Part shown: positions 5,739-64,000 of the stretch, piece after piece
How positions within the stretch are numbered: position 1 is the first letter of the stretch
Layout of the letters: the number at the start of each line of letters is the position of its first letter
Assembly: GCA_963969495.1 (NCBI GenBank)
Contig: OZ018317.1
Coordinates: 34,503,726 to 34,567,725 of the forward strand
Reading direction: 5' to 3'
DNA from: Ceratothoa steindachneri
Taxonomy: Eukaryota; Arthropoda; Malacostraca; Isopoda; Cymothoidae
Length of the DNA: 64,000 bases
Notes under the pieces: generated by a model
Databases searched by the model: none
Seen by the model: only the letters and a program-made list of their open reading frames with translations
What the model was told of the DNA's origin: nothing
Translations under genes and position numbers: made by a program

Positions 5739-8487
5739 TCAATTGTTTTGCGTCCCTAAACGGCCACTTTTCAAGACCTTGTCTAGTCTTGACTTGAACT
5801 GGTCAACAGATTCACTGTTGACAACTTCCACTGGAAGTGCGTTCCACTTACCGCAAATACTGTAGGTGAAAAAATTTCCACACAGATTGCAGTTGTAACG
5901 CTTCAGTTCAAGTTTGAAGCCGTGATTGCGCGTTCTGTTCTCACCCAGTGTGAAAATATCCCAGGAGTCAACATTGTCGAACCCTCGAAGTATTTTGAAA
6001 ACTTCGATGAGCTGACCACGCAGTCTACGGGTTTCCAGCAAGAACAGATCTAATTCCCTTAGTCTATCCTCATAACTTTTATGTTGGATAGAGGGAATCA
6101 GCTTGGTTGCCCTGGCTTGTACGCGTTCCAATCTCGCGATGTCCTTTCGCAATGAAGGACTCCAAACTTGTACGGCATACTCCAGGTGCGGTCGGACAAG
6201 TGAGTTGTACAGGCACAGTAATATCTCCTGGTTCCGATAACCAAACTGGCGCTTAATATAGCCTAGCATCCTTTGGGCCTTTTTCTCCGCCTAAATGCAC
6301 TGTTTCGAGAACTTGAGGTCACTAGTGATTGTTACACCAAAGTCCTTCTCAGTGTCACTCGATTCAAGAGCAGTGCCCTTAAGGATATACTGAGATTGGG
6401 GGTTTCTGTGGCCGATATGCATCACTTTGCATTTGCCCACGTTAAAAGGCATTTGCCACGTGTCCGACCACTCCCCAATCTTCCAAAGATCTTCCTGCAG
6501 GCGGGCAGTATTTCCATCCTTTGCAACGTTCATACCAAGCTTGGTATCGTCGGCAAATGCAGAAATCTTGGCAACCATGTAACCGTCCATGTCGTTGACG
6601 TAGATGATGAATAGTAGTGGTCCCAGGACAGAACCTTGAGGCACCCCGCTAGTAACGGGCACCCACTCAGAAGACTGTCCATTTACCACCACCCGTTGCC
6701 GTCTGCCACTTAGCCAGTTCTCGATCCAGCCGGCTACCTTTCCGTATATGCCAAGCGCTCGCACTTTTCGGAGAAGGCGGTGGTGTGGTACCTTATCCAA
6801 GGCTTTCTGAAAGTCTAGGTAGACCACATCCACCGCCTTGTCCCGATCGTGCTCACTGAAAACGAAGTGGAAGAATTACACAAGGTTCGTCAGGCATGAC
6901 CGTTGCCTTCGGAAGCCGTGCTGGGAACTCCGCAGTAGCAGGTTTGACTCTAAATACGACGTCACTTTGTCCACCATGATGCTTTCCATGAGTTTACCGA
7001 CTATCGAAGTCAGACTGATAGGTCGGTAGTTCGACGGTTGGTTACGGTCTCCTTTCTTGAAGATAGGAGTCACCTCCGCCTCACGCCAGTCTCTAGGAAC
7101 GCATTTAGTTCGGATTGACATGTTAAAGAAAGCGCACAGATTTCGTGATACTTCATCGCACACTGCTTTAAACACTTTAGGTAGAAACCCGTCCGGTCCA
7201 GGGGACTTATTGGTCTTTAGGTCAGCGATCTTTTTCTCTATTTCTCCTTCGGTGAAGTCCATTGCCTCCAGCTTTTCCCCCGAGTAGGAATCCGTCGGCT
7301 GGGGAATGGGACCACACTCTTTAGTAAACACTGAAGAGAAGTAGTCGTTGAGGAGGTTAGCATTTTCTGCATCTGAATGCTTTAATGTTCCCTCCTCGTT
7401 CCTCAAAGGGCCAATCGTTCGACGGATTGGTTTACGGCTGTTCACATATCCAAAAAACTCCTTGGGATTCTCTTTACAGAGTCCCGCCACTCGGAGTTCA
7501 TCAGACCGCTTAGCCGCCCATATGCTGGACTTCACTCTCCTGGCTAGCCTCCGGTATTCGTCAAAGTCACCCAAGATCTTCGATTGCCGGTACACATTTC
7601 TCTTTTCCCTAAGCAGTTGGCCGATTTCTCGATTAAACCACTTAGGTCGAACAGAAGCAGACGGGGGAATTTCAGAGAGATGAAATGCGATTGAAGACTC
7701 ATGAATGTGGTTTTGAAACTATTCCACGAGTCTTTTACGGCATCGCACACTTCTAGCCTCACGTCAGTCAGTCCAGCTCGAAGGCTTGCAAAGTCTGCTC
7801 TTCTCAAGTCAAGTTTCTTTGATTGACTGGCAACAGACCTTACCTTTGGGATTTTGACGCTAAATCTAACTAGCTGGTGATCACTGCCACCGAGCTCTTC
7901 GCCTACAGAGATATCCTCAACGATATCATCCTTAGAGGTGAAGACCAAGTCGAGGATATTGTCTCCTCTCGTCGGTTCTCTGACCCATTGAGTGAGGAAC
8001 TCGTTGTTGGCGAACTCCAGGAGTAGCGCGCTCTCGCCACAGGCTGCTCTGGTTTGCCAGTCAACTTGGCTTTTGAAATCGCCCATAACGATGCACACTC
8101 TGCCTTGAACCAGCTCACCCAGCAGCTAGGACAGTTCCCTGTCCTTCTCAACGGGTTGGAAAGGGGGTCTGTAAAGCAGCCGGGTCCTGTATCTAACAGG
8201 ACTGATCTCTAGGTCAACGCCTAGGAGCTCGTGGTCGGATATAACGTTGGAGTTCGTAGATTTGATTGTATCCTTGACATACAACATTACACCCCCACCC
8301 TCTCTGTCTGGCCTATCTTTGTGGAAGAGTTGGTAGCCAGGAACCGTGAATTCGCCTTCAAAGTCTCGGTTTGACGTTTTTATCCACGATTCTGTTATGG
8401 CTACCATTTCGGGTTCTTCCGTCGCTACGAGGCCGCACAGCTCAGGAAACTTGTTCCTGATTGACCTCGCATTGAACAGAACTTTCA
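5739..8487 (-). pseudogene. LINE A ORF2: EEP endonuclease and reverse transcriptase, broken
   Basis: Reading on the minus strand in pieces: 8407-8126 and 8098-7544 form the apurinic-type endonuclease (EEP) domain, with ITESWI, VMGDFK (normally GDFN) and GGSDH. 7595-6876 is the linker and the first RT motifs (TNKSPGPDGF, NYRPISL, SQHGFRRQRSCLTN). 6833-6291 has the palm with SGVPQGSVLGPLLF and the catalytic FADDTKLG. 6269-5739 is the C-terminal domain (RPHLEYAVQVWSP and WNALPVEVVNSESVDQFK). The protein would nick target DNA and copy the element RNA. At least four frame breaks and the GDFN-to-GDFK change make this copy inactive. Confidence 0.88.
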
Positions 8488-8512
8488 GGGAGTCCCCTAA
8501 TGTAGGACTCCC
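8488..8512 (-). promoter_or_regulatory. Stem-loop at the ORF1/ORF2 junction of LINE A
   Basis: Perfect 8-bp stem (GGGAGTCC/GGACTCCC) with a 9-nt loop. The G of the ORF1 TAG stop (8512-8514) is the first base of the stem. The same stem, loop length and stop position occur in copy B. No ATG lies close by for ORF2, so a role in reinitiation or recoding is conceivable. That role is inference. Confidence 0.7.
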
Positions 8513-9792
8513 TATACTCTTACGTTTCCCGTCTTCTTGTTTGTCGCGGTGGCACCATTTTTGACAACCTCTGAGAAGGTTGTTTGGGGAGTGACTCGGG
8601 CGTACTGGCGTACGTCCGCCTTCCCAATGGGCCGGACACTCCTTTGGGTGCGCTCCACGACATCCTGGATGAGGTTGGCTAGGAACGCCTTGCCCTTAAA
8701 GAAGAGGTGCACCCCGTCCCTTTGGTAGAGGTCTTTTCTACCATAGAATACGGCGTACGGGTCCATAAAAAAGACACCCTCAGCCGTACAGAGGTCTGCA
8801 AGGCGCCTGTTTAGCGACATGTTCCTCAAGTGGGCAGTCCGGCTTGGACTCCACCTCGGGAGAATCCCCACCACGACGCGTCTGCGGGTTTTTAATCCAC
8901 AGTCGTCGACAGCGCCCATAACTGTCCTCATAATCTCACTTGTAGGGCCTACCCTACCTCCTCTGAGGTAGAGGTCGTTGCCACTTACCATAAGTGCAAC
9001 GACTGAAGTCTCTGAAATCTGAGACTTCTCGGCCTCAGCTCTTTCCTGCTTATTCCCACAGCCTGGGATGCAGCTCACCTTAACGCTTGTGCGAAGGCGG
9101 GCCGCTAGCAGGGGCTTCAGACCCTGTGCTTGAGAATCACCAATAAGGGTGACTCTTGCACATTTTTCTGCGCACGACTTAGTCTTTCCTTTCGGAGGCG
9201 ACTTGCCGCTTTCCTCTTGTATCTCTAAATTTTTCTTCTTCTTCTTCTTATTCTTCCTCTTATTCTTCTTCTTGACTTCCTTTGTTATCTCTTCGTTTGT
9301 TTCCCGTTTCTCTTCTTTTGCTTCTACTTTCTCTTCTTCTGTTTCCAGTTTCTTTTCTTCTCTTTCTACTTTCTCTTGTCCTCCTTTTACTTTCTCTTCT
9401 TCTCTTTCTACTTTCTCTTCTTCTATTTCTACTTTCTCTTCTTTCTTCTTTCTTTTCTTCTTTTTGGCTCGTTGAGGAAGCCCTTCAGCAGAAGAAATCG
9501 GCTGTTGGGCGTCCGGAGCCTTCTCACCTGAGCATCTGCATCTCTCTGTTTTTAAGAGTTGAACTTCCCATTTAAGGAGGGAGTTCTCCTCTCTCAGTTG
9601 AGTGATGCTCTCGCCAAGGCGCTTCTCGAGTTCGCAGAAGTCACAGACACTGATGCCATCTGTGAGTTCCTTGCAACTCTTTCCCCCGAAGTCTTCACTC
9701 CATCTGTAGACTTTGCATATTTTGCAGGTTAGCTTTCGAAACGGAGGACCATTCTTCTTCGCCATGTTACAAAAATCTCGGACCATACGCAT
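8512..9792 (-). CDS. LINE A ORF1: Cys-cluster and SGNH-esterase protein
   Basis: An open 426-codon frame. The functional start is more likely Met10 (MAKKNGPP). Residues 23-53 hold a Cys cluster (C23, C26, C40, C50, C53) that resembles a small zinc-binding or PHD-like finger. A heptad-like Leu/Glu stretch (about 54-85) may be a coiled coil, and about 110-200 is a Lys/Glu-rich low-complexity segment. From about 214 there is an SGNH/GDSL-type esterase domain: LIGDSQ with the presumed nucleophile S220, SGND with N272, and DGVHL with D359 and H362. ORF1 proteins of CR1-like LINEs are known to carry an esterase and a PHD-like finger. They are thought to act in the retrotransposition particle, but the substrate is not known. 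All expected catalytic residues are kept here. The stop codon is the first part of the junction stem-loop. Confidence 0.85.
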   Translation of the reverse strand: MRMVRDFCNMAKKNGPPFRKLTCKICKVYRWSEDFGGKSCKELTDGISVCDFCELEKRLGESITQLREENSLLKWEVQLLKTERCRCSGEKAPDAQQPISSAEGLPQRAKKKKRKKKEEKVEIEEEKVEREEEKVKGGQEKVEREEKKLETEEEKVEAKEEKRETNEEITKEVKKKNKRKNKKKKKKNLEIQEESGKSPPKGKTKSCAEKCARVTLIGDSQAQGLKPLLAARLRTSVKVSCIPGCGNKQERAEAEKSQISETSVVALMVSGNDLYLRGGRVGPTSEIMRTVMGAVDDCGLKTRRRVVVGILPRWSPSRTAHLRNMSLNRRLADLCTAEGVFFMDPYAVFYGRKDLYQRDGVHLFFKGKAFLANLIQDVVERTQRSVRPIGKADVRQYARVTPQTTFSEVVKNGATATNKKTGNVRV

Positions 9793-10390
9793 TAAAAAAG
9801 GGGTTTTTGGTTGTGATTTTCTCTCGCACTAATCACATCCGCCTATTTCCAGGAGGTTTTCGGTCGTTCGGCGAACAGAAACCCTTTGATCAAGCACACC
9901 AACCCTAAGGTCTCCCCTGGGCCGGACGTCCCCAATCGTGCCGCAGCTCCCAACTGAGCAGCACGAGAGACCCAGTGAACTGGTTCTCTGATTTTTCGAC
10001 AGGGGTGCTTGAGGTGTAATTGTCTTCCTACTAAGCCCTACTAATCAACTAAAAACGGCCAGACTTGAGGCAAATAGTAAAGCTAAGTGCCCACGACTTC
10101 ATCCGAGATCTTTAGCTGATCTGGCAACCAGCAAGGCACAAAAGCTCTATCTCCAAAGATCAGTTGAGCCTTTGTTCACCAAGTAGCGGTCACAGGGAGC
10201 TGGTCAGGCAATTACACGTGAAGAGAAAGCTTCTAAGGGGTACCTAGCATTTCTCCATTAATCGTACCCCAAACGCCTAAGATCCCTTCAATCTCAGTCT
10301 CTTGTAACCTATGAGTGCTCCAAGGCGTTATTTAATGAGGTTCCAAAGCCTCTTTCTCACGCGGCATAAGGGAGCTGGTGAGGCCCTTAT

Positions 10391-31193: not shown

Positions 31194-31196
<3 letters not shown>
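30601..31196. other. No recognised feature
   Basis: Could include the 5' part of the minus-strand retroelement; no motif seen. Confidence 0.4.
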
Positions 31197-31256
<60 letters not shown>

Positions 31257-31319
31257 TATTAGTGAAGTAACTCAATGGTGAGTTATGCTATATGATAGTG
31301 AAACCACTATATAGGAGCC

Positions 31320-31385
31320 TAAAGTTTAATTTACGAGACTACTTTCGGTATGTAGTTTATCATACCCTCTTCAGTCGTATACTGA
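31320..31385 (-). ncRNA. Hammerhead ribozyme, left arm of Penelope-like element 3
   Basis: On the minus strand: CUGAAGA (31374-31368), stem II GGUAUG/CAUACC with an 8-nt loop, GAAA (31346-31343), a very short stem III, and the cleavage triplet GUC (31339-31337). Stem I pairs UACGA with UCGUA (31336-31332). One extra G precedes stem II, and the second stem III pair is lost (GAAAG instead of GAAAC). Short stem III type I hammerheads are known from Penelope-like elements. Confidence 0.75.
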
Positions 31386-31689
31386 GAATGCAATTGTTAC
31401 AAAAGTCTATCAAAGCGTACAAATCACTAAAAAACACAAAGAAATACAAAATGGAGGGAAAAGGTCATTAACCTTTTTATGGAACATTTCTAAGTATTTT
31501 GCTCCCTCCTGTGATTTCCCATCATAATTTTATATGGTATAGGTATGTATATGATGTTATATCAATTTGTCCTATAAATAGTTTAACTTACGAGTATTTA
31601 ACAATTTCCTTGAAAATCTTAACGACCTCCATACCACTATAAATTTTAAAGTAGAGTAGGAAAAAGATAATTGTATATTCTTTCTTGAT

Positions 31690-32465
31690 GTAAAACTTTT
31701 TAAGAGTCATTGACAAAATTAGTTTCACTGTGTACCGAAAACCAACCCATTCTAACTCATATATCCATTTCTTTTCTCATCATGATATTAACATTAAGCG
31801 AGCCGTTGCATTAGGTATGTTTTTCAGAGCATTTAAGATATGTAACCCTTGCTTTCCAGAAGACGAGATTACATATATAACCTGCAGTTTCATTCCCCTC
31901 CCCGTGATCAATGTAAGTTTATCTAAAGCAAAATCTACTCATTACTGTCCCAAGGATCACAACAAATTTAGTAATACGAAGTGTCTATTATTCCTCCCTT
32001 TTTATTCACTCCTCAAGGAGTGAACAAAGTTATTTCCCCTGGCCTAACCACATTTAAATACCCTTTTACTATCCTTAAATATTTCCCTTCCACCAAGCCC
32101 GTGTATTAGCCAAATGAAGCAGGTGTATATTTAATCCCGTGTGGCTCTACAAACTGTACCTCATTCTACATAGAAGAGACCGGAAGAACATTAACAAAAC
32201 GAATTTATGAACATAAAGGTGATGTCAGACGAGGCAGTACCACATGCAGTATTTTTAATCATATTAGTAACTTCAACCACCAAATTGACTATTCAAAGGC
32301 ACAAATCATACATAATTGTAAAGATTTCCGTAAAAGAAAAATAGTAGAATGTATATTAATAGGAGAAATTCCCAATTTTAATTTGTCAGATAGGCAATTG
32401 AAATGCAGCTTCCATTCCCATAACCTCATCGTAAGCAGCTTAGTCAACGGTCTTAGACTCACATC
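31690..32465 (+). pseudogene. Penelope-like element 3 coding remnant: RT end and GIY-YIG
   Basis: About 31728-31850 reads VYRKPTHSNSYIHFFSHHDI then NIKRAVALGMFFRAFKIC, the conserved block after the RT core. 32107-32250 reads GVYLIPCGSTNCTSFYIEE then TGRTLTKRIYEHKGDV, a GIY-YIG domain in which GIY is GVY and YIG is YIE. The RT catalytic motif is missing (5' truncated). Several stops occur between the parts. Confidence 0.85.
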
Positions 32466-32564
32466 CCCTTATTAATGACCTTTTTTCCCCGTTTTGTGTT
32501 TCTTTGTGTTTTGTGGGGTCTTTTGTTCTGATTTGTACACTATTTATAGACTTTTCTAACAATC

Positions 32565-32632
32565 GCATTCTCAGTATACGACTGAAGAGGGTATGATAAA
32601 CTACATACCGAAACTAGCCTCGTAAATTAAAC
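32565..32632 (+). ncRNA. Hammerhead ribozyme, right arm of Penelope-like element 3
   Basis: CUGAAGA (32582-32588), stem II GGUAUG/CAUACC, GAAAC (32610-32614), loop UA, then GCC (32617-32619) where the consensus has GUC. Stem I pairs UACGA (32577-32581) with UCGUA (32620-32624). The U-to-C change in the cleavage triplet breaks the pair next to the site, so this copy is probably inactive or weak. The GAAAC here and the GUC of the left arm together match the expected ancestral core. Confidence 0.7.
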
Positions 32633-32659
32633 TTTTGGCTCCTATACAGTGGTTCTACT

Positions 32660-32720
<61 letters not shown>

Positions 32721-32721
<1 letters not shown>

Positions 32722-33415
32722 TTTAAAAGGTTGTTTTTATTTGCTGGAAGTTCCCGTGGCTAAGGCATTATTAATATACCCGATACCCATTTAGACAATT
32801 TAGCTTGTGGTTTGTTCTCATTTTGAAAGTATTAAGTCCTTCTGGACTGATTAATTCTAAGCTAGGGATTATTAGATAAAGTGATAGGAGTATGTAGTTA
32901 GTGGTCAGCTTAGAGTTATGTGACTTTACGTGAACAGAGAATTTGGAGTTAGTGCTTAAGTGTGAGTAGGGGTGATCTTAAGTAGATATTCTTGATCCTC
33001 AAACTGGAATTAAAAAAATTGGTTTGTAATACTTCCAATCGATGGCGAGTAGTGCCTCGTCATTATCTTTCCGACAATTTTAGGGAGTTATTGGCTGCGC
33101 TAATCTCCATTTAAATCATTACTACCTAGTAGGATTTAGGATCCAAGGGGGATCTGTATGAACGTGGGAAACACGAAGGTGTATAGAACCCTAGGTCTAT
33201 CGAAGATTAATACGAATTTTCTAATTCTCGAACCGGGAACCAAGGTTGGGATCTGTGGAGGACGAGGTTCTTTACCCGCGGTTATTAACCTTTTTTGAGT
33301 CACGGACCCCTTTGATAATGTCTAGAAGCATGGGTCATCTCCCTACAAAACTTCACATAGACAGAACATTTTATTTGAAAATGGCTCAGGGGTCAAGGCT
33401 GAGATTTTTTAAACT
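32721..33415. other. No recognised feature
   Basis: AT-rich, nothing supported. Confidence 0.5.
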
Positions 33416-47052: not shown

Positions 47053-47639
47053 TAAGGACCTGGTAGCTACCTCATACGTCAGAAGAGAGGCTTTGGAACC
47101 TCTATAAACAACGCCAATCGAAGCTCACTGGTTGCGAGAGACTAAGACTTGAGGGGTCTTAGGCGCTGGGGCACGATGAATGGGATGAGGGTAGTGCCCA
47201 GTTAACCCATTCCCTGGCGCGTAATTATTGACCGTTCCCAGTGCATGTTGACGGGTGCTTATGGTAGCATTGGTCCGAGGTGACGGCCCTTTGTTCCCAT
47301 GTTGGTTGCCAGGCCAATAAAAAGCCTTGGGTCGAGTCCCTTAGTGTGGCGGGATATCCATTGAACGCTACTCCAAAATCTTGGCCGTTGTGAAAGGAAC
47401 TAGTAGAGTTTAGTAAGGCGTGTGCTCCGTTGTTGTTCACCTGGTGACAAATCGAGGGCCCCTTCGGGGACCATCAGTGCTGCTTGGTTGGGAGCCACGG
47501 CACGCCGAGGTTTGACGACTCGGTCAGACGAACAGCAGCACATGGAGCGTGCCTTCTGAAAGATCCGAAACCTCTCCGATCGATAGGTGGGAGCGACTCA
47601 CGCGGGGAGAACTCACCAACCCCCCCTTTTTTATCATTG

Positions 47640-48859
47640 ATTGGTCACGAGTTTTCAGAGAGAGAAAGCGCTCAAAATGACAGGAAAAAAGGTCCCGTTC
47701 GTCTCAAACACAACTGTGCAACATGCCAGTTAGAAAAGTGGTGCGTTGACTTTCCGGAGGGCTGCTACTCAAAATGCAGCCCTGAAAGTATCTGCACTAC
47801 TTGCATATTGACGCGAGAGGTGGATAAATTAAAAGACCTCTCTAGAGCCTCAGAGGAGAGAGCTAAGGTCCTTGAGGGAAAGTTGGAGAAACTTGAAGCC
47901 CTTAACGCAGCTCAGGTTCGATTCCTAGAAGAAGCTCCGCCCACTGATGTGTCGGAATCCCCTGGTAACCAAGCGGACATTCCGGCATCATCTGAGGCTA
48001 ATATAGCTGAGGCGAGAGAAAAAGAGAAAAAGAAGAAAGGAGAAACGAAGAAAAAAAGAAAAAGAATAAAGTTGAAACAAAAGAAGAAGAACCAAAAATA
48101 TAAGAAAAACAGATAAAGAAGAAGAAAAAGAAAGATAAGAATGTGGAGAGTAAAGAGGAAAAGGGGAGGCCTCTTCCACAAGGGAATACCCCGACTTCAG
48201 AGCCCAAGTGTCCGAAGGTCACCCTCATTGGTGACTCGCAAACACGGGATCTGCAGCCGCTGCTAGCGGCCCGCCTTCGCACTAGCATGAAGGTAAGCTG
48301 CCTGTCAGGACGGGGTAACCACAACATCAGAGTAGAGGCAGAGAAAGCTCAGATTTCTGAGAATTCAGTTGTTGCTCTGATGGTGAGCGGCAACGACCTC
48401 TACCTCAGAGGGGGTAAGGTTGGCCTTAGTGGTAAGACCATCCAAACGGTGATGGGAGCCGTGGATGATTTAGGGCTTAAAACCCGCAAACGTGTGGTGG
48501 TTGGGATGCTTTCGAGAAGAGGTCCCTCCCGAACCGCTCCCGAAAGAAACGTCACAGTAAACAGAAGGTTGGCGGATCTCTGCACGGCAGAAGGAGTCTT
48601 CTTCGAGGACCCCTATCGTACCTTTATCGGTAGAGACGACCTCTACCAAAGTTACGGGGTACATCTCTCCTTTAAAAGGAAGACCTTTCTCGCCAACCTA
48701 ATTCAAGATGTCGTGGAACGAACCCAAAGGAGCGTTCGAAACAAAGCGAAAGCGGACGTGCGCCAGCATGCCCGTGTCACTCCTGGAACGACCTTCTCGG
48801 AGGTCGTCAAAATGGGTGTGACCACGAAAACAAAGAAGCCGGGAAACGGAAGAGCGTAG
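47640..48859 (+). pseudogene. LINE B ORF1: Cys-cluster and SGNH-esterase protein, frameshifted
   Basis: The first frame (to 48116) holds the Cys cluster (KHNCATCQLEKWCVDF, then CSPESICTTCIL), a coiled-coil-like stretch and the Lys-rich segment, and stops there. The esterase follows in another frame (48143-48859) with VTLIGDSQ, MVSGNDLYLRGG and SYGVHL. In copy A the last motif is DGVHL, so the catalytic Asp is lost here (Tyr). The break is in the Lys-rich low-complexity run, a likely place for length change. Not functional. Confidence 0.85.
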
Positions 48860-48883
48860 GGAGTCCTACACTAGGGGACTCCC
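48859..48883 (+). promoter_or_regulatory. Stem-loop at the ORF1/ORF2 junction of LINE B
   Basis: Same perfect 8-bp stem GGGAGTCC/GGACTCCC and 9-nt loop as in copy A. The single base difference is in the loop (TACACTAGG against TACATTAGG). The ORF1 TAG is 48857-48859, so its G starts the stem, as in copy A. Confidence 0.72.
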
Positions 48884-51635
48884 ACAAATTTCTTCTGTTC
48901 AATGCGAGGTCAATCAGGAATAAGTTTCTTAAGCTCCGTGGCCTCATAGTAACAGAGGAACCTGAGATGGTGGCCATAACGGAGTCGTGGATAAAAACCT
49001 CAAGCCGAGATTTTAAACGGGAATTCACGATTCCCGGTTACCAGCTCTTCCTGAAAGATAGGCCAGACAGAGAGGGTGGCGGTGTGATGTTGTATGTCAA
49101 GGATACTCTCAACTCGACGCATTGCAACATCGTATCCGACCATGAACTACTAGGTGTTGACCTAGAGATAGGTCCTGCCAAATACAGGACCCTGGTGCTT
49201 TATAAACCCCCTGCCCAACTCGTTGAAAAGGACAGAGATCTGTACCAGCTACTAGGAGAACTTGTGGAAGACAGAGTGTGTATCGTCATGGGTGATTTCA
49301 ACACACAAGTTGACTGGGAAACCAGAGAACCCTGTGGCGAGAACGCACTACTCCTGGAGTTCGCGAACAACGAGTTCCTCACTCAATGGGTGAGAGAGCC
49401 AACGAGAGAAAACAATATCCTCGACTTGGTTTTCACCTCTAAACCTGACATCGTTGAGGACATCTCTGTTGGCGAAAAGCTCGGTGGCAGTAAACATCGA
49501 CTAATTAGATTTGTAGTCAAAGTTCCGAATGCAGGGCCTCCAACTTGTAAATCGAAGAAACTCGATTTGAAAAGAGCAGACTTTGCAAGTCTTCGTGCTG
49601 GACTAACTGACGCGAGACTAGAAGTGTGTGATGTTGTTGAAGACTCGTGGAACAGTTTCAAAACCACATTCAGGAGTCTTCAATCGCGTTTCGTCCCTCT
49701 GAAATGTCCCCGTCGGTCTTCTGTTTAACCAAAGTGGTTTAATCGAGAAATCGGCCAACTTCTTAGGAAGAAGAGAACTGTGTACCGACAATTGAAGATC
49801 TTGGGTGGCTTTGACGAGTACCGGAGGCTAGCCAGGAGAGTGAAGTCCAGCATAAGGGCGGCTAAGCGTTCTGAGGAACTCCGAGTGGCGAGACTCTGTA
49901 AAGAGAATCCCAAGGAGTTTTTTGGATATGTGAACAGCCGTAAACCAATCCGTCGAACGATTGGCCTTTTAAGAAATGAGGAGGGGACATTAAAGCACTT
50001 AGATGCAGAAAATGCTAACCTCCTCAACGACTACTTCTCTTCAGTGTTTACTGAAGAGTGTGGTCCCATCCCCCAGCCAATGGATTCCTACTCGGGGGAA
50101 AAGCTGGAAGATATGGACTTTCCTGAAGGGAAAATAAAAAAGAAGATCACTGACCTAATGACGAACAAGTCACCTGGCCCGGATGGTTTTTTTACCTAAA
50201 GTGTTGAAAGAAGTGCGCGATCAAGTGTCACGACACCTGAGCGCAATCTTTAACCTGTCAATCTGGACCGAATGCGTCCTAGAGACTGGCGTAAAGCGGA
50301 AGTGACTCCTATCTTCAAGAAAGGTGACCGAAACCAACCGTCAAACTACCGACCTATCAGTCTGACTTCGATAGTCGGTAAACTCATAGAAAGCATCATT
50401 GTGGACAAAATGACGTCGTATTTAGAGTCAAACCTGCTACTGAGGAGTTCACAGCACGGCTTCCGAAGGCAACGGTCATGCCTGACGAACCTTGTGGAAT
50501 TCTTCCACTTCGTGTTCAGTGAGCACGATCGGGGAAAGGCGGTGGATGTGGTGTACTTAGACTTTCAGAAAGCCTTTGATAAGGTACCACACTGCCGCCT
50601 TCTCCGAAAGTGAAAGCGCTTGGCATAGACGGAAAAGTAGCCGGCTGGATCGAGAACTGGCTAAGTGGCAGACGGCAATGGGTGGTGGTAAATGGACAGG
50701 CTTCTGAGTGGGTGCCCGTTACTAGCGGGGTGCCTCAAGGCTCTGTCCTGGGACCACTACTATTCATCATCTACGTCAACGACATGGACAGTGACATGGT
50801 TGCCAAGATTTCTAAATTTGCCGACGATACCAAGCTTGGTATGAACGTTGCTAAAGATGGAAATACTGCCCACCTGCAGGAAGATATTGAGAAGATTGGG
50901 GAGTTGTCGGACACGTGGCAAATGCTTTTTAACGTGGAGAAATGCAAAGTAATGCATATAGGCCACAAAAACCCCCAATCTAAGTATATCCTTAAGGGCA
51001 CTGCTCTTGAATCGAGTGACACTGAGAAGGACTTGGGTGTAACTAGCACTAGCGACCTCAAGTTCTCGAAACAGTGCATCAAGGCAGAGAAGAAAGCCCA
51101 AAGAATGTTAGGATACATAAAGCGCCAGTTTGGATAGCGTAACAAGGAGATATTACTTTGTTTGTACAACTCCCTCGTTCGGCCGCACCTGGAGTATGCC
51201 GTACAAGTTTGGAGTCCTTCGTTTCGAAAGGACATCGCAAGGTTGGAACGCGTACAAGCTAGGGCAACCAAACTGATTCCTTCTATCCGACATAAAAGTT
51301 ATGAGGATAGACTAAGGGAATTAAATATGTTCTCGCTGGAAACCCGTAGACTGCGTGGTCAGCTCATCGAAGTTTTCAAAATACTTCGAGGGTTCGACAA
51401 TGTTGACTACCGGGATATTTTCACACTGAGTGAGAACAGAACGCGCAATCACGGCTTCAAACTTGAACTGAAGCGTTACAACCGCAATCTGTGTGGAATT
51501 TTTTTCACGTACAGTATCTGCTGTAAGTGGAACGCACTTCCAGTGGAAGTTGTCAACAGTGAATCTGTTGACCAGTTCAAGTCAAGACTAGACAAAGTCT
51601 TGAAAAGTGGCCGTTTAGGGATGCAAAACAATTGA
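48884..51635 (+). pseudogene. LINE B ORF2: EEP endonuclease and reverse transcriptase, broken
   Basis: 48884-49728 gives the endonuclease with LFNARSIRNKF, VAITESWIK, VMGDFNTQVDW (intact) and GGSKH, where the catalytic SDH is altered. The frame is open without an ATG from the junction stem-loop onward. 49780-50199, 50272-50613 and 50610-51137 carry the linker and RT (TNKSPGPDGF, NYRPISL, SGVPQGSVLGPLLF, KFADDTKLG). 51162-51635 is the C-terminal domain. Four frame breaks, including an in-frame stop after RQFG at 51135. Confidence 0.88.
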
Positions 51636-63387: not shown

Positions 63388-63477
63388 TTATATATATATA
63401 TATATGAGTATATCCAAAAAGCACAGTAGCGTACATGTAACTATAGGGATAAAACCACAGTAATAGGGTTAATTTTA

Positions 63478-63659: not shown

Positions 63660-64000
63660 TTAAATTGGCCGTCGGAAATATTAAAGTTGGGATAAGATTC
63701 ACCCAACTATTATATTTAAAGTAAAATGGGAACTGAACAACTCATTGCCGTTTCTGGATGTAAAAATATCTTAAATAAATGACAAAGTATATTGTTCCGT
63801 CTACCGGAAGCCAACTAATTGTAATGCCTATATTCATTATTTCTCGTGTCACGATGTATCCGTTAAAAGGTCTGTAGTTTTTTCCATGTTTCTGAGAGCA
63901 TATCGCATTTGTGATCCTTGTTTCTTGCGAGATGAAATTAATACAATCACCTAAACATTCATTGAACTGCAATATCCTATTTGGTTCATAGAAAAGTGTC
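63660..64000 (+). pseudogene. Penelope-like element 4 coding remnant
   Basis: Reads NNSLPFLDVK (partly shifted), then VYCSVYRKPTNCNAYIHYFS, CHDVSVKRSVVFSMFLRAYR and ICDPCFLRDEINTIT, the block after the RT core in Penelope-like elements. In-frame stops occur. The RT core is absent upstream (5' truncated), and any GIY-YIG domain would lie outside the window. Confidence 0.8.

Follow-up and report, generated by a model that had tools for sequence, protein, structure and literature searches.

A decayed Penelope-like element with a hammerhead-like motif in each of its inverted arms in the isopod Ceratothoa steindachneri

The window, a 64,000-nt stretch of the Ceratothoa steindachneri genome (assembly GCA_963969495.1, contig OZ018317.1, forward-strand positions 34,503,726 to 34,567,725), contains a 5'-truncated, decayed Penelope-like element flanked on both sides by (AT)n runs (Table 1). 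Its coding remnant lies between two copies of the element's 3' region (pseudo-LTR, pLTR), the left antisense and the right sense, in agreement with the opposite orientation that an earlier note on this DNA had claimed for the arms. Positions 31289-31413 and 32543-32667 are 93% complementary over 125 nt, and BLAST lengthened the match to the full arms of Table 1 at 84.7%, indels included. A block of 49 nt (31343-31391) is identical between the arms and spans the hammerhead motif as far as GAAA; past it, the arms differ at two bases within five (31342/32614 and 31338/32618). The left arm runs on into a 'tail' with a TAACTC/GAGTTA hairpin (31268-31285), and the right arm has no tail and ends at the short site. 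At the inner junction, the stop-codon region of the left arm is joined directly to the coding part, which begins inside the reverse transcriptase (RT) domain, and neither arm alignment nor BLAST revealed a palindrome or inverted repeat there. No target-site duplication is readable within (AT)n, and no direct pLTR, the mark of tandem or partial tandem units in Penelope-like elements, was found at this element (same-strand pairs number one among the first 100 listed of the 1210 family 23-mers described below).

Table 1 Features of the Penelope-like insert and its target, in window coordinates
Feature	Position	Strand	Basis
Left (AT)n run, target site	31194..31259	.	Sequence and arm comparison
'Tail', ~30-nt extension past the short end site	31260..31289	-	Arm comparison
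Left arm, pseudo-LTR (3' region of the element) in antisense	31289..31471	-	Arm alignment, BLAST
Hammerhead motif, left copy	31332..31379	-	Arm comparison, motif scan
Head-to-head junction of the two copies, possible overlap of a few nt at most	31468..31475	.	Arm alignment, BLAST
Penelope-like coding remnant, from the end of the RT domain through a linker to a GIY-YIG-like end	31470..32475	+	Frames, protein match
121-aa open stretch, aligned with P0001 in its GIY-YIG region	32110..32475	+	Pfam alone sub-threshold, E 0.18
Right arm, 3' region in sense, short-site end	32472..32667	+	Arm alignment, BLAST
Hammerhead motif, right copy	32577..32624	+	Arm comparison, motif scan
Right (AT)n run, target site	32663..32719	.	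Sequence and arm comparison

The coding remnant is frameshifted and carries stops, the last of them at 32473-32475. Single ORF pieces retrieved no relatives as queries (viral_contigs; protein search), whereas a joined read-through query of 311 aa, with stops as X, matched protein P0001 at 41% identity over 91% cover, one of three matches among 345 candidates. Pfam gave no match to the joined query, and the last piece alone reached GIY-YIG only below threshold. P0001 carries RVT_1 followed by GIY-YIG, so that the Penelope-like arrangement of RT and C-terminal GIY-YIG in one ORF is seen through this relative, the window copy itself being truncated and decayed; a pseudo-LTR with a hammerhead motif, which in this group may bear an optional tail of 30-40 bp, is present as well. 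The assignment to Penelope-like elements made in the earlier note is thus supported, and the locus is a dead, ordinary member of this known group.

Both arms share TACGA, CUGAAGA, a 6-bp stem II (GGUAUG and CAUACC around auaaacua), GAAA and UCGUA, the left continuing as GAAAG..GUC and the right as GAAAC..GCC. The earlier note had described CUGAAGA, stem II, GAAA and stem I correctly in both arms, but overlooked an additional G that separates CUGAAGA from stem II in both. It was also right that each arm lacks a different core pair: in standard hammerhead numbering, the left motif has lost stem III pair 15.2-16.2 (G.G) and retains A15.1-U16.1 with GUC, and the right motif has lost A15.1-U16.1 (A.C, giving a GCC triplet) and retains 15.2-16.2 with GAAAC. 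What it called a 'tiny stem III with UA loop' makes better sense as one half of the palindrome ACUAGU, through which two tandem motifs pair. Since one stem III pair is missing per copy and both have the extra nucleotide before stem II, the window copies fall outside the definition of a type I hammerhead (CUGANGA, GAAA, stems I-III with A15.1-U16.1, and an NUH site).

A relaxed pattern, composed after the motif was known and tolerating one stem III mismatch, matched twice in 7.68 Mb of first-order random sequence, corresponding to ~0.03 expected matches in the window (128 kb, both strands) with the two arms scored as one event. Rfam at gathering score returned no match of any kind in the whole window, and at E<=10 no hammerhead family was among the matches to 31200-32760 or to the right motif alone; two other loci, L006 and L002, likewise gave no hammerhead. 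By this score, which the earlier note had proposed as its check, the identification formally fails wherever it was tried. A search of the genome itself with RF00163 returned 0/1, but its controls also returned 0/14, so this search cannot decide. Minimum-energy folds of four stretches contained stem II in every case and stem I in one (the right motif, 55 nt), with the full hammerhead absent from all four.

A 23-nt piece of the arm, starting at the cleavage site, has 1210 exact matches in the same 3.93-Gb genome, and its reversed control has none. A search with the right arm (2367 first-look candidates, 40 scored) listed 44 places including the window's own; 39 loci read for the other 43, together with L006 from neighbouring sequence, yielded 45 arm instances including the window's two, after the partial arms of L049 and L006 were dropped. 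This sample consists of best matches and is not a random draw, and some instances are the two arms of one insert. Within it, GAAACUAGUC is retained in 34/45 instances, CUGANGA is intact in 40 and AACTAGT in 37, and 16 match the 48-nt motif throughout once three positions are allowed to vary (two to any base, one to C or T). The motifs therefore belong to the element, as the earlier note had proposed, and the intact ancestral core that it had pieced together from the two arms is real, kept in other family members. The extra nucleotide before stem II is present in 44 of the 45 and missing in L060. It may be usual in such elements, judging by the anole element discussed below, whose start codon lies at the beginning of stem II.

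Each of the 13 stem pairs is paired in 38 to 45 of the 45 instances, as counted by a within-family script; a cross-family MAFFT alignment had misaligned stem II and its loop and was put aside. The covariation looked for among genomic copies did not appear, as no two-sided compensatory change was found in the 45. The last base of stem II is split 23:22 between C and T, with pairing kept as G-C or G.U, and we did not count this as covariation because the position lies in a CpG. As for the 'complementary decay' of the two arms, the left half of the claim stands better than the right. GAAAG occurs in the left arm of the window and in no other instance, so the lost left pair looks like decay of this copy, whereas GCC occurs in three of the 45 (the right arm, L030 and L048) and may therefore have been inherited rather than have arisen by decay.

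A second Penelope-like element, of another family, begins at 63432, runs to the end of the window at 64000 and continues in L001 to ~1928. It repeats the plan of the first: inverted arms of 261 nt, 92% complementary, each with a hammerhead-like motif, and an (AT) run adjoining each outer end, the left arm extending, by eye, ~40 nt further than the right. A third motif lineage lies at L002:5163, with CUGAUGA, stem II GGGTT/AACCC and GAAACGUA. An (AT)n run follows after ~100 nt, no coding sequence was recognised nearby, and the tie of this lineage to Penelope is only putative. In L001-L003, a pattern that made no demand on pairing gave six matches, of which three pair (both L001 arms and one in L002) and three do not; the L014 motif was left uncounted, having been found solely by a scan demanding pairing. 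Elsewhere in the window, two long open frames (5739-9828 on the minus strand and 47448-51635 on the plus strand) look like two copies of one element, presumably a LINE-type retrotransposon with endonuclease and RT-like parts.

The outer ends of the 45 arm instances concentrate at two sites. Eighteen end after ACTATCAT, the short site, and 23 end ~30 nt further on, near TTTTACTT, the tail of the family holding an AACTC/GAGTT hairpin; in two of the latter, L054 and L060, the sequence breaks off or is deleted short of the full tail. The remaining four were classed as 'other' (L039, L063 and two in L043, where the minus-strand arm at 381 enters the tail and then joins another arm). Upstream stretches of ~2 kb were also read for 16 copies, taken in the order listed (L067-L070 and L072-L083), along with one interior stretch (L071). 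An antisense family arm was present in 8/16, marginal (5 nt) in L073, and absent within these 2 kb in 7/16 (L068, L070, L072, L075, L076, L078 and L082), a reading that arms more than 2 kb away would escape; in L075, Penelope-like coding sequence lies in antisense, its family uncertain. Inverted arms are thus common in the family, and not universal. In L072 and L076, two different loci, the sense coding match to the window begins at nearly the same position (~1237 in both), which hints either at a truncated template common to both or at a splice-like joint.

Arm ends may tend to differ within an insert. Among 11 resolved inverted pairs with both ends known, a set that takes in the window, the C15 pair and L049 (L043 and L006 were unclassable), nine are mixed, with one arm tailed and the other tailless; L074 has both tailed and L083 both tailless. 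One of the mixed pairs, L077/L039, ends ~4 nt short of the site. Against an expectation of one half, the excess has a one-sided P = 0.033; adding L059, whose flanks are themselves palindromic, gives 9/12 and P = 0.073, and the excess is suggestive only. A collision idea, by which the tailed arm should be the shorter one, fitted six of the nine mixed pairs and not the other three, and is unsupported.

These observations are, in our judgement, probably explained by reverse transcription primed from each strand of an AT-rich target after cutting, with two neighbouring starts on the element RNA, and by later divergence of the arms. The element's endonuclease would cleave an (AT)n stretch on both strands, and each 3' end laid bare would serve as primer for reverse transcription close to the 3' end of the element RNA. 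At the window locus, the cDNA of the right, sense arm would have begun at the proximal start and run for ~1.2 kb, and that of the left, antisense arm at the tail start, ~30 nt further 3', for ~0.2 kb, before the two were joined head to head. As both cDNAs would cover the pseudo-LTR, each arm would receive a minimal hammerhead, on opposite strands, and the arms would diverge after insertion. The hammerhead of the source elements is a minimal type I motif whose stem III forms the palindrome ACUAGU, which would suit cleavage by two motifs in tandem, as a double hammerhead. The two discrete end sites, which resemble the pair of RT starts published for the anole element, support this mechanism, as does the recurrence of the plan in the second family at the window's end. 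So do the inverted pseudo-LTRs with a tail on one of them in rotifer Penelope (PMC3846280) and the prevalence of divergent over convergent neighbours among the first 100 listed 23-mer places. A narrower version, which we hold only tentatively, is that the two cDNAs of an insertion start on a single RNA molecule, with one RT at the proximal start and its partner at the tail start. An inverted insertion should then have one tailed and one tailless arm, because two enzymes cannot share one start; nine of the 11 resolved pairs fit and two do not.

Self-priming or template switching, in which a cDNA end folds back or switches RNA and copies the arm in reverse, is a rather unlikely source of the inverted arms. 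Fold-back or switching has been suggested for rotifer Penelope elements with palindromic junctions (PMC3846280), and near-palindromic copies with short spacers exist in the present family as well (23-mer starts 44 and 110 nt apart; L006; L059). The window join of stop-codon region to mid-RT, however, has no visible inverted repeat, and a fold-back from one start predicts no difference between the ends of the two arms, such as is seen in most resolved pairs. Four places in the genome (G000), namely C2:26315643, C2:117183648, C2:131819752 and C1:88156568, hold tiny head-to-head arm pairs with starts 44 to 110 nt apart, which we read as miniature inverted inserts made from two pLTR ends. L059 has head-to-head arms sharing a one-base deletion, and outer flanks that mirror each other too, making a larger palindrome that is either real or an assembly artefact.

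There is little probability that the hammerhead cuts the template RNA and that copies start at the cleavage site, on a ribozyme-processed or circular template. The short antisense arm of L069 does end 2 nt from the site, but other short arms end elsewhere, and extending the 23-mer by 10 nt upstream, across the site, keeps 738/1210 matches, exactly as many as extending it by 10 nt downstream (738/1210); summed over all 45 arm instances, departures are similar in number in the two added stretches (11 and 8 letters). For the anole element, moreover, unprocessed RNA is described as the dominant template in vitro (PMC11167929). With no pile-up of copies at the site, we rejected such a start as the main route.

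It is slightly less probable still that the arms were brought together by two separate insertions, or by a single insertion and a local inversion. The (AT)n ends of both arms, a shared target, speak for it, and one same-strand pair occurs in the listed sample; yet among the first 100 listed of the 1210 23-mer places (90 on C1 and 10 on C2), neighbours no more than 5 kb apart number eight divergent (-+), none convergent and one on the same strand, and the plan recurs in several copies and in the second family. Chance likeness to a hammerhead in what are simply the inverted repeats of a retrotransposon is the least credible reading of all, as the lack of Rfam hammerhead matches and of two-sided compensatory change in the family is set against the low chance expectation for the window and against the three of six pairing-free matches in L001-L003 whose stem II differs in sequence from the window's, pairs, and comes with the same one-nucleotide insert.

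Double hammerheads are described as requiring a palindromic stem III and a tandem arrangement (PMC6466107). ACUAGU is palindromic in the way such a double hammerhead is reported to need; at this locus the two motifs are read from opposite strands and cannot share one RNA. For that reason, and with a stem III pair missing from each motif, we would expect no cleavage there. Cervera and De la Pena in 2014, and Lunse et al. in 2017, are said to have found minimal type I Penelope hammerheads active as dimers. Reviews describe Penelope hammerheads as minimal and possibly working as dimers, and one from 2020 still calls their role a mystery. In vitro, the anole ribozyme needed the protein of its element in order to cleave, and RNA-seq gave no reads starting or ending at the ribozyme site (PMC11167929).

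Inverted pLTRs, tails and hammerheads in Penelope-like elements are all already published. Our element resembles PAc, of the Penelope/Poseidon type in Anolis carolinensis, in its RT and GIY-YIG remnants, its AT-rich target, its pseudo-LTR with a minimal hammerhead, and two end sites giving an optional 'tail'. In PAc, two adjacent RT start sites define the tail, the protein cuts and extends both strands, and the start site does not differ between strands (PMC11167929). The PAc ORF starts at stem II (PMC11167929), whereas both window arms have the triplet AGG at A9 and so no ATG there. Inverted pLTRs, a 31-bp tail on one of them and 5' truncation are described for Penelope copies of Adineta vaga in PMC3846280 and are matched in the window, with its tail on the left only; many inverted junctions in that species have palindromes, in contrast to the window junction. 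With minimal type I Penelope hammerheads, our motifs share the very short stem III, the palindrome of the double hammerhead and the location in the pLTR, and differ in that each lacks one stem III pair and that they stand on opposite strands, with no tandem. In LINE-1 twin priming, two primers on the element RNA give an inverted segment, the second annealing internally. The inverted segment is alike here, whereas both arms start at 3'-end sites.

The mixed-end and cleavage-site counts were not met in the open-access literature searched, which does not in itself establish novelty. With its 1210 exact 23-nt copies, the family is a natural record of Penelope-like insertion. Its paired arms with different ends can test whether both strands are primed on one shared RNA, and the matches counted on either side of the cleavage site speak against a ribozyme that fixes where the 5' ends of copies fall.
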